Assembly (NCBI GenBank): GCA_964035015.1
Contig: OZ036003.1
Coordinates: 7,263,754-7,327,753, forward strand
Direction of reading: 5' to 3'
DNA: 64,000 nucleotides
Origin: Corallium rubrum
Taxonomy: Eukaryota > Cnidaria > Anthozoa > Scleralcyonacea > Coralliidae
Positions 9,951 to 62,177 of this stretch are shown piece after piece; within the stretch, counting starts at the first letter, position 1, and the number at the start of each line of letters is the position of its first letter. The notes below the pieces were generated by a model that had not been told where the DNA came from, searched no databases, and saw only the letters and a list, made by a program, of their open reading frames with translations. The position numbers and the translations under genes are program-made.

Positions 9951-10270
9951 CAAAGCACGACCAATCGTCAAACATACTCCTGATTTCTAGTTTAAAGAGT
10001 TGAAGATTAAGATTTAAGAGTCGTTCGTTTGATGGTTGGTCGTCCAGTTGGTTGTCAGCCAACGTTCGTTGTAATCTGTATGGCAAGATGTAAGGTGAAC
10101 TGTAGAGTTAGGTGAACTATCGCTCCTATATACGCGAGTCGAGGGCGAGTTGTCTAATTGTTTTACTATAAACTTTTACTATAAACTAACTAGTTGGACA
10201 AATATTATTTTAGAGGCACAAACTAAAACATCGAGAAAATGGGAATTTTCTGCCATTGTTTTGAATTTTA
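9951..10270. other. NAA20 downstream flank
   Basis: No gene seen. Bases 10180-10270 (AACTAGTTGGACAAATATTA, then the GAAAATGGGAATTTTCTG region) match 16285-16375 in the same orientation, so this is the edge of a repeat family that also precedes the second polypyrimidine tract. Confidence 0.5.
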
Positions 10271-10272
10271 AA

Positions 10273-11475
10273 AATCTTCATTCTCATCTTCATCTTCATT
10301 CTCATCTTCATCTTCATTCTCATCTTCTTTCTCATCTTCATCTTCATTCTCATCCTCGTTCTCACCTTCATCTTCATTCTCATCTTCATTCTCATCTTCA
10401 TCTTCATTCTCATCTTCATTCTCATCTTCTTTCTAATCTTCATCTTCATTCTCATCTTTCTCATCTTCATCTTCATCTTCATTCTCATCTTCTTCTCATC
10501 TTCATCTTCATTCTCATCTTCATTCTCATCTTCTTTCTAATCTTCATCTTCATTCTCATCTTCTTTCTCATCTTCATCTTCATCTTCATCTTCATTCTCA
10601 TCTTCTTTCTCATCTTCATCTTCATTCTCATCTTCATTCTCATCTTCTTTCTAATCTTCATCTTCATTCTCATCTTCTTTCTCATCTTCATCTTCATCTT
10701 CATCTTCATTCTCATCTTCATCTTCTTTCTCATCTTCATTCTCATCTTCCATTCTCATCTTCATCTTCATTCTCATCTTCTTTTTCGTCTTCTTTTTCGT
10801 CTTCTTTTTCGTCTTCTTTCTCATCTTCGTCTTCATTCTTATCTTCACTCTCATCTCATCTTCATCTTCATTCTCATCTTCATCTTCTTTCTCATCTTCT
10901 TTCTCATCTTCATTCTCATCTTCATTCTCATCTTCCATTCTCATCTTCATCTTCATTCTCATTTTCTTTTTCGTCTTCTTTTTCGTCTTCTTTTTCGTCT
11001 TCTTTCTCATCTTCGTCTTCATTCTTATCTTCACTCTCATCTCATCTTCATCTTCATTCTCATCTTCATCTTCTTTCTCATCTTCTTTCTCATCTTCATT
11101 CTCATCTTCATTCTCATCTTCCATTCTCATCTTCATCTTCATTCTCATCTTCTTTTTCGTCTTCTTTTTCGTCTTCTTTTTCGTCTTCTTTCTCATCTTC
11201 GTCTTCATTCTTATCTTCACTCTCATCTTATCTTCATCTTCATTCTCATCTTCATCTTCATTCTCATCTTCATCTTCACTCTCATCTTCATCTTCATCTT
11301 CATCTTCATCTTCATCTTCATCTTCATCTTCATCTTCATCTTCATTCTCATCTTCATCTTCATCTTCACTCTCATCTTCATCTTCATCTTCATCTTCATC
11401 TTCATCTTCATTCTCATCTTCAACTTCGTCTTCATCTTCACTCTCATCTTCATCGTCACTCTCATCTTCTTCGAT
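10273..11475. repeat. 1.2-kb (TTCATC/TTCTCATC)n polypyrimidine minisatellite with 186-bp higher-order unit
   Basis: Hexamer-based array with strict strand bias. A higher-order unit repeats three times at exactly 186-bp spacing (the CCATTC variants at 10749, 10935 and 11121) and carries a (TTTTTCGTC)n block. Both strands remain open for hundreds of codons (His/Leu/Phe-rich or Asp/Glu/Lys-rich) only because the repeat lacks stops. I do not call a gene. Confidence 0.9.
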
Positions 11476-11609
11476 AATCCTAACAAGAATAAATGACATA
11501 TACGTATGACATGTACTGTATTTCACAAAACTACAGACCGTCACCGCGTCACGCAACGATTATTAAACCATTGACAATATGACACCATGTACAACCTTTT
11601 ACAGTTCCC

Positions 11610-11893
11610 TATACTACTCAAGTCAGTAGAGCGAGACATGGATGATTTTTTTATCGCTTCCGAAGTGTCAGTTTTATTAACCGCAGATCATATTTCAAAG
11701 CAATCACGAGGTGTATTCTCATGTATACGTACCACGTGATAAACATCCAATCGTTAACTCGTAACTTATCACGTGGTACATAAGAATACACCTCGTGATT
11801 GCTTTGAAATTGATCCGCGGTTAATAAAACTGACACTTCAGAAGCGATAAAAAAATCATCCATGTCTCGCTCTACTGATTTGAGTAGTATTCT
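11610..11893. mobile_element. Foldback, about 125-bp arms
   Basis: TACTACTCAAGTCAGTAGAG at the left is mirrored by CTCTACTGATTTGAGTAGTA at the right. The arms run through TTATCGCTTC, TTTGAAATATGATC-like and CACGAGGTGTATTC motifs. It is absent from the paralogous copy near 19310. Confidence 0.8.
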
Positions 11894-11920
11894 ATAAGCA
11901 TTACATTTCGTTCTAAACAA

Positions 11921-12052
11921 GCAAAACAAAACAAAACAAAACAAAACAAAACAAAACAAAACAAAACAAAACAAAACAAAACAAAACAAAACAAAACAAA
12001 ACAAAACAAAACAAAACAAAACAAAACAAAACAAAACAAGACAAAACAAAAC
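11921..12052. repeat. (AAAAC)n microsatellite, about 26 units
   Basis: An AAAAC run with one G interruption near the end. The paralogous inverted copy near 19265-19280 has only about two units. Confidence 0.95.
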
Positions 12053-21370: not shown

Positions 21371-29969
<8,599 letters not shown>

Positions 29970-30101
29970 AGCGATTTACAAAATTTCTGGAATTCATATT
30001 TCTTATAGGCAAACCTACCTACCTATTTTCTCGAATAAGCACCCAGCGCTCTTTTGAAATAACACTTGAAATGACTAGTACATGTACTATTTTTTGCAGT
30101 A

Positions 30102-55263: not shown

Positions 55264-55334
55264 GCCTCCGTGGCTCAGTGGTCAGAGCATTGCACTAGAA
55301 TCGCAAGGTCGTGGGTTCAATTCCTGCCGGAGGG
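55264..55334 (+). mobile_element. tRNA-like SINE head, unit 1
   Basis: Acceptor GCCTCCG pairs with CGGAGGG (6 of 7). A box TGGCTCAGTGG and B box GGTTCAATTCC match the Pol III type-2 promoter. The anticodon stem TTGCA/CGCAA encloses loop CTAGAAT, giving anticodon AGA. It lacks the long variable arm of tRNA-Ser and repeats with a SINE tail, so it is a SINE head, not a tRNA gene. Confidence 0.75.
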
Positions 55335-55541
55335 CCTGTGTAGTTGCATTTTTTGCAACTGCTCCCGGTTTGGTCTTAAAATGTATATATTCTACACTCG
55401 AATTTTCCTTCACCCTAAAATCCTTAGAACATGCTGTGTAATCGAGTGAAATGCCCAATATCATTTATAATATACCCAATTCTCTCCTGGCATTACCACC
55501 TTATTATATATACAGAACTCGCGATCAAGCTCTCGGCTACG

Positions 55542-55612
55542 GCCTCCGTGGCTCAGTGGTCAGAGCATTGCACTAGAATCGCAAGGTCGTGGGTTCAATT
55601 CCTGCCGGAGGG
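55542..55612 (+). mobile_element. tRNA-like SINE head, unit 2
   Basis: Identical in A box, anticodon region and B box to the copy 278 bp upstream. Confidence 0.75.
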
Positions 55613-55912
55613 CCTGTGTAGTTGCATTTTTCGCAACTGCTCCCGGTTTGGTCTTAAAATGTATATATTCTACACTCGAATTTTCCTTCACCCTAAAATC
55701 CTTAGAACATGCTGTGTAATCGAGTGAAATGCCCAATATCATTTATTAAATAATCCTATTTATATCCCACGCACTGGCTGTCCTGAAAGATCAAAATACA
55801 ACATAAACTTGTTCCTTCTATTCTTCGTTTTATTAAACTAGACGATAGTGTAAACTATACTGGGGAAATTTTTGCGATATTTGTGTTTTTGTGAAATCTC
55901 GTCAAATCCAAC

Positions 55913-56837: not shown

Positions 56838-57197
56838 GTCGTGGGTTCAATCCCTGCCGGAAGGCCTGTGTAGTTGCATTTTTCGTAACTGGTCCCGGTT
56901 TGGTTTTAAAATGTATATATTCTACACTCGAATTTTCCTTCACCCAAAAATCCTTAGAACATGCTATGTAATCGAGTGAAATGCCCAATATCAGTTATAA
57001 TATACCCAATTCTCTCCTGGCATTACCACCTCATTATATATACAGAACTCGCGATCAAGCTCTCGGCAACGCCCTCCGTGGCTCAGTGGTCAGAGCATTG
57101 CACTAGAATCGCAAGGTCGTGGGTTCAATTCCTGCCGGAAGGCCTGTGTAGTTGCATTTTTCGCAACTGGTCCCGGTTTGGTCTTAAAATGTATATA
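56838..57197 (+). mobile_element. tRNA-derived SINE units interrupted by the palindromic element
   Basis: A headless unit (from the B box, 56838) is followed by a full tRNA-like head at 57072-57142 (A box TGGCTCAGTGG, B box GGTTCAATTCC). The tail stops at AAAATGTATATA (57197) and continues at 62084 as TATATATTCTACACTCG. Confidence 0.8.
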
Positions 57198-57264
57198 AGT
57201 AGATGACCCCCCCCCCCCCCCCATCCAGGGACCAAAGGGATGCCGCCTCATTAAATATTCAGCG

Positions 57265-57318
57265 TGACTCACGCATGACTCGCGCACCATGACTCACGCA
57301 TGACTCACGCCTGACTCA
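57265..57318. promoter_or_regulatory. Cluster of TGACTCA (AP-1-like) sites
   Basis: TGACTCA at 57265, 57290, 57301 and 57312, plus TGACTCG at 57276; spacings are 11, 14, 11 and 11 bp, about one helical turn. It lies upstream of the small ORF and is mirrored in the right arm near 61965-62020. The motif is the bZIP/AP-1 consensus; regulation is inferred. Confidence 0.4.
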
Positions 57319-57611
57319 CGCCTGTGACATGTTTGGACAAGACTGGAATATAGTTAGTGCGCATGAAGTTATATAAATTGAATAATATGGAGACTTTGAA
57401 TATTATATTAACCTTTATGATCAAACGGTCTTATACACGTTTTGTGGCAATAAGTGTTAACAAGTTTAGAGAGTTATCGTTTACTTTGGCCTAGTTTGTA
57501 GAGGAACGAAACAGAAATGGATAGAGACACTTTATATTTTTTATCTTAAACCTGGTTTGTAGGAATTTAGCGGGTTTTTGGTTAAGTAATCTTAGTGTTA
57601 TTTACGAAGAG

Positions 57612-57902
57612 ATGAATGTTGACAGTTTTGGTCGAATTATCGCTTATCTAACCCTAGTGTATAGAGTATACGAATCCTTGGATGAAGAATCAATTCGAGA
57701 AGCCGTAAAAAGAAGAACGATCAATGATTTCATGAGAAAATATAAACGGAATAACTCTTCAAGCTGGTTGCTACGCTTTCTGTTACTAACTGTGATATTT
57801 GCATATTTATCTCAGTGCACGTGCAGGAGACAAAAGAGAAACTCGTTAGGGGCAATTAAGAGGATTAAGCGCTTAGGCAAGTCTAGGCGAGAAAGTCATT
57901 AG
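57612..57902 (+). CDS. Small basic single-pass membrane protein of the element (left arm)
   Basis: 96 residues from the ATG at 57612. The N-terminal half is charged and helical-looking (YESLDEESIREAVKRR). One hydrophobic segment follows at about residues 54-69 (LLRFLLLTVIFAYLSQ), and then an Arg/Lys-rich tail (AIKRIKRLGKSRRESH) with a CTCRR junction. It converges with the ATPase gene, 68 bp apart. I do not recognise the family; small basic membrane-active virion proteins are known in related viruses, but no homology is claimed. The mirrored copy is frameshifted in the tail. Confidence 0.6.
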   Translation: MNVDSFGRIIAYLTLVYRVYESLDEESIREAVKRRTINDFMRKYKRNNSSSWLLRFLLLTVIFAYLSQCTCRRQKRNSLGAIKRIKRLGKSRRESH

Positions 57903-57970
57903 CGTCATCACAACAATCAGTTTAAAATATTTATTTCGGTTTTCGTTCAAACATATACATATAAAAAGTT

Positions 57971-59302
57971 TTAGTAAGGTCTGCTTCTTAGATTATATTT
58001 AGGTGTTTTTATTTTAAAAGTAGCATGATAATCTTTCTTGTCTTCTGGTGATAATTGGGACACATCTTCTTTTGTCATGGGTAAATATTTTGATCTAGTC
58101 ATCATTAGATGGTGTTCATACTCTTCTCTATCATCCGGAGTCATCTTTGCCAAGTCTTTCTCTGTCGGGTCGCCCAAACTTTCCCAGTTATGAAAGAAAT
58201 TATGTTTAAGCGTCGGTTGTTCAACGGTAGGAGGCGGTGTTACAAAATAGGTTTTAGGTGTAGCAGGGAAACCCCACGGAAGATCGTCAGTTTCTTGCTT
58301 TATCTCCGGTGTCAAATTTGGTGTATTTTGCTGAGTTTGAAGACTAGTCAGAGGTTGAGACTGATTTTGCAGTTGGTTTTGAAACGTCAGAAAACGTCCT
58401 AGCTGATTGGAGTAAAGTATGCTCTTTTCTTCAGGTGTTAACTGTGGCGCTTGTACAATATCTTGCATTTTTTGTTCTGTATTGTACATGGCATTAACGA
58501 TCGGAGGTAGTTGATAGGATTGCTTTTGTATGAAACTACCCAGCTGTTGCTGCAGGCTGGAGCTATTTTCTCCAGGTAGAACATTGGTCTTGAGGCGGTG
58601 ATCGTCGTCCGTAGTCGGCTTTAGATCAAGCATTAAATAACCATGAGGGCGACTTGTGGCTTCCTCATAACTCTTCATAAATTCATGGACATGACCTGGG
58701 TTCACCTGCCGTGCCAAGACAGAAATTTGTTGCTTATCCCTCGGAGACTTGAATAGTACGATATAGTGTGCGTTGAGGCTGATGTTTCTTGTTTCTTTGC
58801 CTTGGTGGAAAATGTTCTGAACAATATAGATGATAGATAAATTCCGGTGATGACTACCTTTAGTAAATAGACTAGCAACTCGTTTATCTCCCCCTGATTG
58901 AGCCATAAGATCATCAAGGACGATCAGGTTACGTTGAGAGACTTCAAGAAAATTATCAGAGTCAATGTTGGAAGGTATACCCTCATAGAATTCGATGCCT
59001 GGTATTGTTTTGATCATTTCTAAATACATGGGCTGCCACTGTCCATAGCACCAAATGATACGTTCGGGAGGAGGATTAATCGTAGTTTTGGCGTTTTCAA
59101 GAAGTGTTTTCACCCATACTGTTTTACCACTTTGGGTGCACCCTGCTACAATACACGTGAACGGGTGCTGCATGACTGTAGATACGTTGGCTAGAGGAAT
59201 AGGTTGCGAGGCGTCGCTCTCGGGGTGGACATTCTTAATATGACGAAGAAGGTGCTCTTTTCTCGATAGACTTTTTCCGCATTTGTTGCAAACGTGTGAC
59301 AT
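57971..59302 (-). CDS. Polinton/adintovirus-type packaging ATPase (left arm, open frame)
   Basis: 443 residues if read from the ATG at 59302, which begins MSHVCNKCGKS. It has an N-terminal C2H2 finger (Cys5, Cys8, His21, His26), a P-loop GCTQSGKT (residues 54-61), a Walker B LIVLDD (126-131), then SHHRNLSIIYIVQN and SLNAHYIVLFKSPRD, conserved in FtsK/HerA-superfamily genome-packaging ATPases of Polintons and adintoviruses (A32-like). A GYLMLDLKP segment follows, and then a Gln/Pro-rich tail ending NLRSRPY. The enzyme normally pumps DNA into capsids. Here it is retained without capsid genes. The finger fused ahead of the P-loop is seen in related copies in other invertebrates, as I recall. The frame is intact; expression is unknown. 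Confidence 0.8.
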   Translation of the reverse strand: MSHVCNKCGKSLSRKEHLLRHIKNVHPESDASQPIPLANVSTVMQHPFTCIVAGCTQSGKTVWVKTLLENAKTTINPPPERIIWCYGQWQPMYLEMIKTIPGIEFYEGIPSNIDSDNFLEVSQRNLIVLDDLMAQSGGDKRVASLFTKGSHHRNLSIIYIVQNIFHQGKETRNISLNAHYIVLFKSPRDKQQISVLARQVNPGHVHEFMKSYEEATSRPHGYLMLDLKPTTDDDHRLKTNVLPGENSSSLQQQLGSFIQKQSYQLPPIVNAMYNTEQKMQDIVQAPQLTPEEKSILYSNQLGRFLTFQNQLQNQSQPLTSLQTQQNTPNLTPEIKQETDDLPWGFPATPKTYFVTPPPTVEQPTLKHNFFHNWESLGDPTEKDLAKMTPDDREEYEHHLMMTRSKYLPMTKEDVSQLSPEDKKDYHATFKIKTPKYNLRSRPY

Positions 59303-59394
59303 GTTTACACGATGAGTACTAAACACCAAATGAGTTTATTATTTGGAAGCGCAATGCTTAAATTATTTAACCAAATTTCTGCAGAGGATCTAAA

Positions 59395-59896
59395 CACCCA
59401 AACACCCCGGGGGTAACCCCCAAACACCCCTGGGGGTAACCCAAACACCGGTAACCCCAAACACCCCTGGGGTAAATCCCCAAAACACCCCGGGGTAACC
59501 CCAAACACCCCTGGGTACCCCAATCACCCCCGGGGGTAACCCCACCCGGTAACACCCCCGGGGGTAACCCCAAACACCCCTGGGGTACCCCAATCACCCC
59601 ATGGGTAACCCCCAATCACCCCCGGGGGTAACCCCCAAACACCCCGGGGTAACCCCCAAACACCCCCGGGGGTAACCCCAAACACCCCTGGGGCACTCCA
59701 ATAACCCCCAGGGGTGTTTGTGGGTTACCCCCGGGGTGTTTGGGGTTACCCCAGGGGTGATTGGGGTACCCCAGGGGTGTTTGGGGGTTACCCATGGGGT
59801 GATTGGGGTACCCCAGGGGTGATTGGGGTACCCCAGGGGTGTTTGGGGTTACCCCCGGGGGTGATTGGGGGTTACCCCCGGGGTGTTTGGGTGTTT
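59395..59896. repeat. Central GGGGTAACCCC-type minisatellite, inverted and asymmetric
   Basis: Units of CCCCGGGGGTAACCCCAAAC type, about 310 bp on the left, switch orientation near 59708 and continue about 190 bp as the reverse complement. Each unit is itself partly palindromic. This is the symmetry centre of the element; copy number differs between sides. Confidence 0.85.
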
Positions 59897-59985
59897 AGAT
59901 CCTCTGCAGAAATTTGGTTAAATAATTTAAGCATTGCGCTTCCAAATAATAAACTCATTTGGTGTTTAGTACTCATCGTGTAAAC

Positions 59986-61319
59986 ATGTCACACGTTTGC
60001 AACAAATGCGGAAAAAGTCTATCGAGAAAAGAGCACCTTCTTCGTCATATTAAGAATGTCCACCCCGAGAGCGACGCCTCGCAACCTATTCCTCTAGCCA
60101 ACGTATCTACAGTCATGCAGCACCCGTTCACGTGTATTGTAGCAGGGTGCACCCAAAGTGGTAAAACAGTATGGGTGAAAACACTTCTTGAAAACGCCAA
60201 AACTACGATTAATCCTCCTCCCGAACGTATCATTTGGTGCTATGGACAGTGGCAGCCCATGTATTTAGAAATGATCAAAACAATACCAGGCATCGAATTC
60301 TATGAGGGTATACCTTCCAACATTGACTCTGATAATTTTCTTGAAGTCTCTCAACGTAACCTGATCGTCCTTGATGATCTTATGGCTCAATCAGGGGGAG
60401 ATAAACGAGTTGCTAGTCTATTTACTAAAGGTAGTCATCACCGGAATTTATCTATCATCTATATTGTTCAGAACATTTTCCACCAAGGCAAAGAAACAAG
60501 AAACATCAGCCTCAACGCACACTATATCGTACTATTCAAGTCTCCGAGGGATAAGCAACAAATTTCTGTCTTGGCACGGCAGGTGAACCCAGGTCATGTC
60601 CATGAATTTATGAAGAGTTATGAGGAAGCCACAAGTCGCCCTCATGGTTATTTAATGCTTGATCTAAAGCCGACTACGGACGACGATCACCGCCTCAAGA
60701 CCAATGTTCTACCTGGAGAAAATAGCTCCAGCCTGCAGCAACAGCTGGGTAGTTTCATACAAAAGCAATCCTATCAACTACCTCCGATCGTTAATGCCAT
60801 GTACAATACAGAACAAAAAATGCAAGATATTGTACAAGCGCCACAGTTAACACCTGAAGAAAAGAGCATACTTTACTCCAATCAGCTAGGACGTTTTCTG
60901 ACGTTTCAAAACCAACTGCAAAATCAGTCTCAACCTCTGACTAGTCTTCAAACTCAGCGAAAAATACACCAAATTTGACACCGGAGATAAAGCAAGAAAC
61001 TGACGATCTTCCGTGGGGTTTCCCTGCTACACCTAAAACCTATTTTGTAACACCGCCTCCTACCGTTGAACAACCGACGCTTAAACATAATTTCTTTCAT
61101 AACTGGGAAAGTTTGGGCGACCCGACAGAGAAAGACTTGGCAAAGATGACTCCGGATGATAGAGAAGAGTATGAACACCATCTAATGATGACTAGATCAA
61201 AATATTTACCCATGACAAAAGAAGATGTGTCCCAATTATCACCAGAAGACAAGAAAGATTATCATGCTACTTTTAAAATAAAAACACCTAAATATAATCT
61301 AAGAAGCAGACCTTACTAA
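59986..61319 (+). pseudogene. Packaging ATPase, right-arm copy, frameshifted
   Basis: The mirror copy of 57971-59302. The P-loop, Walker B and finger are all present, but a small insertion in an A-run near 60958-60965 shifts the frame and ends the protein at 60978. The remaining C-terminal 114 codons are open in another frame (60975-61319). The ATPase core could still be made, without its tail. Confidence 0.8.
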
Positions 61320-61440
61320 AACTTTTTATATGTATATGTTTGAACGAAAACCGAAATAAATATTTTAAACTGATTGTTGTGATGACGCTAATGACTTTCT
61401 CGCCTAGACTTGCCTAAGCGCTTAATCCTCTTAATTGCCC

Positions 61441-61677
61441 CTAACGAGTTTCTCTTTGTCTCCTGCACGTGCACTGAGATAAATATGCAAATATCACAGT
61501 TAGTAACAGAAAGCGTAGCAACCAGCTTGAAGAGTTATTCCGTTTATATTTTCTCATGAAATCATTGATCGTTCTTCTTTTTACGGCTTCTCGAATTGAT
61601 TCTTCATCCAAGGATTCGTATACTCTATACACTAGGGTTAGATAAGCGATAATTCGACCAAAACTGTCAACATTCAT
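61441..61677 (-). pseudogene. Small basic membrane protein, right-arm copy, truncated
   Basis: The mirror copy of 57612-57902. One A fewer in the CAAAAGAG run shifts the frame just after the transmembrane segment, so the basic tail is replaced and the product ends after 78 residues. Confidence 0.7.
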
Positions 61678-62083
61678 CTCTTCGTAAATAACACTAAGAT
61701 TACTTAACCAAAAACCCGCTAAATTCCTACAAACCAGGTTTAAGATAAAAAATATAAAGTGTCTCTATCCATTTCTGTTTCGTTCCTCTACAAACTAGGC
61801 CAAAGTAAACGATAACTCTCTAAACTTGTTAACACTTATTGCCACAAAACGTGTATAAGACCGTTTGATCATAAAGGTTAATATAATATTCAAAGTCTCC
61901 ATATTATTCAATTTATATAACTTCATGCGCACTAACTATATTCCTGTCTTGTCCAAACATGTCACAGGCGTGAGTCAGGCGTGAGTCATGCGTGAGTCAT
62001 GGTGCGTGAGTCATGCGTGAGTCACGCTGAATATTTAATGAGGCGGCATCCCTTTGGTCCCTGGATGGGGGGGGTCATCTACT

Positions 62084-62177
62084 TATATATTCTACACTCG
62101 AATTTTCCTTCACCCAAAAATCTTTAGAACATGCTATGTAATCGAGTGAAATGCCCAATATCAGTTATAATTTACTC
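62084..62177 (+). mobile_element. SINE tail continuing after the palindromic element
   Basis: TATATATTCTACACTCGAAT, then TTTTCCTTCACCCAAAAATC and ATCGAGTGAAATGCCC: the 3' remainder of the SINE interrupted at 57197. Confidence 0.8.

Follow-up and report, generated by a model that had tools for sequence, protein, structure and literature searches.

A palindromic mobile element of 4886 bp occupies positions 57198-62083 of a 64,000-nucleotide stretch of the Corallium rubrum genome (hereafter the window; assembly GCA_964035015.1, contig OZ036003.1, positions 7,263,754 to 7,327,753). This element probably belongs to a large family of integrated, palindromic and non-autonomous satellites whose helper would be a Polinton (Maverick) resident in the same genome. 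No replication or capsid genes were found in it, and it shares its termini with the putative helper; because it fails the defining gene set of Polintons, we refer to it as a Polinton satellite and not as a Polinton.

The initial annotation of the window described a palindrome with AG.../...CT ends and a TATATA duplication, a description borne out by self-BLAST, by alignment of the arms and by the end sequences. A single minus-strand self-alignment spans 57215-62074 at 97.3% identity including gaps, and a short second alignment covers the end. Outside the central minisatellite (arm positions 151-2180), the arms have no mismatches in 2021 aligned positions and two gap openings; over the ~640 bp past the C-run they have 2 mismatches in 639 and one gap opening. 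The left end at 57198 reads AGTAGATGA-C16 and the right end at 62083 reads G8-TCATCTACT, with terminal motifs AGTAGAT... and ...ATCTACT, and copies of the 6-bp target-site duplication TATATA lie at 57192..57197 on the left and 62084..62089 on the right. The left terminal repeat of ~700 bp (57198..57895, + strand), which is wholly or partly common to sister elements with other genes, contains a GGGATGCCGCCTCATTAA motif at 57237-57254 and a tandem repeat of TGACTCACGC(A/C) at 57265..57321 (+ strand); the right terminal repeat (61386..62083, - strand) has an approximate inner edge. The centre likewise proved to have no unique interior beyond a minisatellite, the left half of which (59397..59693, + strand, unit about 21 bp) is mirrored by the right half (59706..59891, + strand, mirror unit) across an axis placed approximately at 59699..59700, where 45 of 60 flanking bases are complementary.

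Two mirrored viral-type genes had also been proposed. An ATPase gene is indeed present in both arms, but its right copy is split and a further frame of 96 amino acids has no listed partner. The left gene (57971..59329, - strand) is intact and encodes 452 amino acids (443 counted from the inner ATG), in which a zinc finger of the C2H2 class is combined with a packaging ATPase of the A32 type (Pfam Pox_A32, 24.8 bits against a cut-off of 22.8). The mirrored copy (59959..61319, + strand) consists of frames of 339 amino acids (59959-60978) and 114 amino acids (60975-61319). The 96-amino-acid frame (57612..57902, + strand) lies within and slightly past the terminal 700 bp and has no mirrored partner of at least 80 amino acids among the listed frames. 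It is possibly Bcl-2-like, as judged from a weak Pfam match below the cut-off (E 0.022); neither Pfam nor PDB supported this label for the related piece of the Polinton described below. The 19 residues at and just before the start of the frame are 58% alike to a frame near the right end of that Polinton (E 3e-6, from a one-sequence comparison).

Genome-wide searches scored the best candidates for each protein: 150 of 940 for the integrase, 93 of 2201 for the ATPase, 150 of 164 for the capsid protein and 150 of 1314 for a 224-amino-acid protein of the sister elements. There was no PolB frame among the listed frames of the window element, and the listed PolB matches (best 76 of 1079) were located elsewhere. 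No retroviral-type integrase, capsid or protease frame was listed either, and none of the best 150 integrase or best 150 capsid matches fell within the element. For the protease and the minor capsid protein, the frames of the window were checked and no genome-wide search was made. Scans of IMG/VR retrieved no confirmed relative, whether made with the ATPase, with the capsid piece or with the terminal motif, and a PHROGs search gave weak matches without function.

Elsewhere in the genome the same structure is found again, flanked by 6-bp duplications of its own, as the initial annotation had anticipated. In a search of the same 474-Mb genome with 497 bp of the arm, the best 40 of 1791 candidates were scored, and 28 of these 40 places formed 14 inverted pairs with starts 2.6-5.3 kb apart. 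We fetched 20 further loci (L009-L028) and located both ends by motif in 16, of which 14 have an exact 6-bp duplication (that of L014 is situated in a TA run); a single end was seen in L018, L023, L025 and L027. Genome-wide, the terminal motif with up to two mismatches occurs at 726 forward and 723 reverse places, compared with none in a reversed control. The first 100 of these places (contig C1, 0-42.5 Mb) include 72 that form 36 neighbouring plus/minus pairs less than 20 kb apart, and the other 28 stand alone. The sizes of these pairs, which include ~90 bp added for the outer ends, are 4.4-7.4 kb in 27 of the 36 and 9.7-14.8 kb in the remaining nine.

The fetched loci have the terminal ~700 bp of the window element in common, in whole or in part, and their interiors differ. 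Mirrored ATPase genes define type A (the window element, L009, L012, L020 and L026), and a mirrored gene for the 224-amino-acid protein, for which no credible match was found, defines type B (L010, L011 and L022). In type C (L013-L017, L019 and L021, also L023 and L025) the mirrored 224-amino-acid gene flanks one ATPase copy that is whole, split or shortened. The loci L018, L024, L027 and L028 are odd or incomplete. Because several sister elements have a unique centre, with one ATPase between mirrored 224-amino-acid genes, full palindromy is not the rule for the family. The centres of type B (L010 2960-3080, L011 and L022; compared with L015) retain a short stretch that corresponds to the 5' part of the ATPase frame in type C, and type B thus appears to derive from type C by deletion. 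Within the first ~45 bp of L009-L028, a short block located between the C-run and AAAGG varies in what seems a modular fashion (for example, ATCCAGTGTATC, ATATGGTGTATC, ATATACCGACAC and ATATAGGGACC). Where both ends were printed, the variable block is mostly identical at the two ends of one element, and it may mark origin or packaging specificity.

A Polinton sharing the terminus of the window element had been predicted, and PolB, integrase and capsid-like pieces were found in an element of 13,273 bp at C1:11054673-11067945 (the 13.3-kb Polinton), which has the same end motifs and CTGGTC on either side. Its genes are known from samples of 121-200 bases and one longer PolB locus (L052), and these sampled pieces place PolB, ATPase and integrase between inverted ends with a 6-bp duplication. 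Eleven samples comprise both ends, a tandem repeat, core-like, protease-like and capsid-like frames, an integrase and, near the right end, the frame related to the 96-amino-acid region of the window; a twelfth (L075) is a capsid-like piece, and a zinc-finger-type ATPase follows PolB. A protease peptide from contig C15 (L072) matches S273R of African swine fever virus (E 0.0029), and the protease-like piece on C1 (L087) has 95% DNA identity to L072. For the integrase piece, matches were obtained to rve_3 (E 0.0039) and to retroviral-type integrases of solved structure (E 0.008-0.026). Among the 58 integrase copies identical over this piece, 51 are accompanied on the same strand by the capsid piece at a distance of no more than 3.5 kb. 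Frames of 360 amino acids for the integrase and 449 amino acids for the capsid protein recur genome-wide, and for this reason the Polinton looks recently active. A search with the rve family (best 150 of 2916) was uninformative, returning mostly long frames that are probably retroelements.

Some PolB elements are themselves palindromic. The search with PolB (PF03175; best 76 of 1079 scored) contained four inverted pairs, and the mirrored elements are 11-12 kb in size. Those at C20:2810809-2822245 and C49:8475191-8487475 have terminal motifs of the window type together with the duplications TATATT and GACCTC, respectively. The end of the C20 element is 84% identical to that of the window element over 172 bp and contains the same TGACTCACGC(A/C) repeat, and its mirrored PolB genes surround one central ATPase. 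We examined 11 more copies of this PolB family by reading 151 bp at the expected site of the mirrored partner; one copy was mirrored and 10 were not, which rules out that all PolB copies of the family are mirrored. The family total is thus six mirrored (the four pairs, C12 and one of the 11 samples) and 10 without mirroring at the distance sampled. Of the 10 non-mirrored samples, six read as one capsid-like protein and two as one protease-like protein; another sample, L066, resembles the endonuclease of a long interspersed nuclear element. Samples beside other PolB families showed mirroring in none of six cases.

Mobility and particle genes are linked to the non-mirrored PolB genes. Integrase and capsid matches (best 150 of each) lie within 14 kb of all 10 non-mirrored PolB genes and of none of the six mirrored ones, and the window and the 20 loci of small elements contain none of them. 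Of the 12 integrases on C1 below 42.5 Mb, four are enclosed by terminus pairs, each of which is at least 11.1 kb. Within 13 kb of 103 integrases we found none of the 150 best-scored matches to the 224-amino-acid protein and one of the 93 best-scored ATPase matches; the exceptional ATPase match (C1:30757063) is located next to stand-alone ends and is perhaps a neighbour. These linkage counts indicate that genes for mobility and particles are absent from the small elements examined, which have their own genes.

Mirroring itself is systematic among the genes of the small elements. The 46 top-ranked of the best 93 ATPase matches include 15 inverted pairs and the remaining 47 include none, those of the 47 that lie within fetched loci being single copies. 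Among the best 150 matches to the 224-amino-acid protein, 104 form 52 inverted pairs with a uniform -/+ sense, and three neighbours share a strand. The best 150 integrase matches and the best 150 capsid matches each contain one inverted neighbouring pair; these two pairs (C20:3481777/3484886 and C30:409235/415174) are possibly adjacent insertions.

The ATPase of the window element is 47% identical to the central ATPase of the C20 PolB element over 156 aligned positions. The ATPase of the C20 element matches that of the 13.3-kb Polinton at 97.7% over 86 bp and 83.6% over 61 bp, and beside this gene the centre of the C20 palindrome is 98.8% identical to a sample of the 13.3-kb Polinton over 161 bp. 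Between types A and C, ATPase codons 46 to the end have a nonsynonymous divergence (dN) of 0.017-0.023 and a synonymous divergence (dS) of 0.17-0.23, with dN/dS about 0.1 outside the zinc finger. Over codons 1-45, which comprise the zinc finger, dN is about 0.41 and dS is saturated or undefined, as if the finger had been replaced. On these codon comparisons, the ATPase shows purifying selection between sister lineages, and such lasting selection on the protein does not fit easily with defective copies made once. The 224-amino-acid protein has a 45% identical homolog in L024 (dN 0.43, dS 1.3-1.4). The arms of the five type A elements differ by 0-7 mismatches in ~2000 bp within an element and by 0.25-1.66% between elements (40 comparisons), and the terminal arms of L028 are mostly unlike. 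PolB arms are 98.6-99.9% identical within the four pairs and 94.0-97.8% identical to the other copies printed, with the exception of L046 and L047.

The initial annotation had interpreted the palindrome as a snap-back of one end of a Polinton or adintovirus. In its plain form this explanation, which we consider unlikely for the window element, holds that replication errors yield functionless, defective-interfering palindromes of one end that are integrated in trans. It suits the 11-12 kb PolB palindromes, which consist of the helper's own sequence: their mirrored PolB genes surround one ATPase, with a centre near the samples of the 13.3-kb Polinton, and repeat arrays are present at the axes examined. 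One arm of the C25 PolB palindrome (L046) is 99.8% identical over 3064 bp to a non-mirrored copy on a different contig (L047, on C15), so this palindrome may be a recent product of a C15-like Polinton copy. Snap-back genomes of adeno-associated virus (AAV) provide a documented analogue (the accessible part of PMC8235507). The window element has near-perfect self-complementarity, but not the sequence of the helper. Its ATPase and the one in the PolB element are just 47% identical, the 224-amino-acid gene of its family is near none of the 103 integrase copies (best 150 of 1314 matches), and purifying selection and a large copy number point to persisting lineages. For these reasons the window element does not look to us like a simple defective-interfering copy of the end of the resident Polinton.

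Separate elements with different genes, ends that resemble one another (84% identity over 172 bp for the window element and the C20 PolB element) and their own target duplications could also be the segments of a multipartite virus, with PolB, ATPase, 224-amino-acid and other genes on separate common-ended molecules that are each palindromic. Up to twelve segments are described for some bidnaviruses (PMC11071296, in the part available). However, one 13.3-kb molecule with the same end motifs holds all of the sampled core genes, which makes segments unnecessary for the Polinton, and the 20 small-element loci contain none of the best 150 integrase or best 150 capsid matches. Single-PolB elements also contain protease-like, capsid-like and integrase pieces, and we regard the multipartite reading as very improbable. 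Joining of an inverted copy to one true arm by the assembler would account for the near-identical arms, and foldbacks can arise in long-read assemblers. Such an artefact can be given almost no credence here, as exact 6-bp duplications surround 14 of the 16 two-ended elements, the arms of the window element differ in insertions, deletions and run lengths, sister elements have a unique centre between their arms, and inverted pairs recur across many contigs.

Several observations weigh against a family of Polinton satellites. Two of the 16 two-ended elements (L011 and L017) are without an exact target duplication, and the TATATA duplication of the window element could by itself arise by chance in AT-rich DNA, although the duplications of sister elements are clearer (for example, CAGAGC, TGCATG, CACGCT, GACGAG and CAGCTG). 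The dN/dS estimates come from six frames at five loci that were chosen for being intact. Over the terminal ~640 bp, the arms of L014 differ by 2.4%, and those of L010, L011 and L022 are mutually identical; the near-identity of the PolB arm L046 to a non-mirrored copy elsewhere also counts on this side, and gene conversion after insertion could have homogenised the arms. As for the helper, Pfam was silent on the protease, capsid-like and core-like pieces, bar one weak unrelated match, and the capsid and core names are presumptive, being based on motifs and linkage.

If the window element is a Polinton satellite, the terminal-protein-primed polymerase of the Polinton would start in trans at the ends that the two have in common, and the Polinton integrase, likewise acting in trans on these ends, would insert the product. 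The palindrome could have originated when a nascent strand folded back in a repeat-rich centre, at the tandem repeats now at the axes, and was copied to its own end. Once displaced, a palindromic strand would form a one-ended hairpin, and copying round this hairpin would restore a palindrome with identical arms, such that every round re-equalises them. The least certain step is packaging, in which the satellite ATPase with its exchanged finger may steer satellite DNA into Polinton capsids, by analogy with phage satellites that supply their own packaging specificity. We hold with somewhat less than even confidence that the satellites hijack Polinton capsids via their own zinc-finger packaging ATPase and that the finger exchanged between lineages sets which genome is packaged. 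The use of Polinton capsids would be the simplest arrangement, as the packaging ATPase is under selection, yet no capsid gene was found in the satellites. If true, these elements would be a eukaryotic equivalent of phage satellites and would indicate, indirectly, that capsids are still made by Polintons in their host, and particle formation by Polintons would become testable in C. rubrum. In addition, the mirrored genes are a natural system in which to study how protein-primed linear genomes turn palindromic and remain so.

We compared the family with known systems; beyond palindromy, the features of Polintons were those tested in sequence, and the other systems were compared by description. 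Non-autonomous DNA transposons with shared inverted ends are mobilised in trans via common termini. The coral elements would be mobilised in the same manner but, unlike such transposons, they are protein-coding, with purifying selection and a virus-type gene. Phage satellites of the phage-inducible chromosomal island (PICI) type bring a small terminase subunit, whereas the present elements are eukaryotic and palindromic and bring a whole packaging ATPase. What the two would share is the lifestyle of a small integrated parasite with its own packaging specificity for a helper capsid (PMC6092414 and PMC5052747, in the parts available). In AAV, snap-back genomes of either end are described, and a self-complementary genome derived from one viral end is replicated in trans (PMC8235507, same part); the coral elements differ in being integrated with target duplications at large copy number and in having genes, under selection, that are not those of the co-resident Polinton. 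The transpovirons of mimiviruses are DNA molecules of about 7 kb that resemble the present family in their inverted ends, central tandem repeats, lack of a polymerase and dependence on a larger virus (PMC7031253, in the part available). They have a different host, and the available description includes no palindrome; the coral elements encode a packaging ATPase and are inserted in nuclear DNA. In vertebrate Mavericks, which measure about 17 kb, the ends are (AG)3 or (AGT)2 and the duplications 6 bp; Maverick particles were unobserved as of that report (PMC8097293, in the part available). The inverted ends of the window family are close to (AGT)2, and the 6-bp duplications and ATPase gene are also alike; in contrast, the small elements are 4.4-7.4 kb in length (27 of 36 terminus pairs), their genes are mirrored, and genes for a polymerase, an integrase or a capsid protein were not found in them. 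A search of titles and abstracts, with few subscription journals, returned no description of palindromic, segmented, non-autonomous or satellite Polintons, which does not prove their absence; palindromic, segmented or non-autonomous Polintons are not described in the available parts of PMC10120064 or PMC6431247 either.

We made additional observations on PolB genes and on the surrounding sequence. At L030, L038, L039 and L050 the PolB frame breaks off and is taken up again in another open stretch, an arrangement of reading frames consistent with a spliced intron. A second PolB family (the L031 group), with a separate adjoining ATPase gene, is found at C1:68-76 Mb, where it has many copies, and on many small contigs; mirroring was seen in neither of its two samples. 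The window contains three sequences that resemble tRNA-Ser(AGA) and share one strand (55264-55336, 55542-55614 and 57072-57144), likely short interspersed nuclear elements derived from tRNA, the third of which stops 53 bp ahead of the palindromic element. Elsewhere in the window there is strong strand asymmetry, with a GC skew of -0.58 at 10001-12000 and an AT skew of 0.26-0.30 at 26001-30000.

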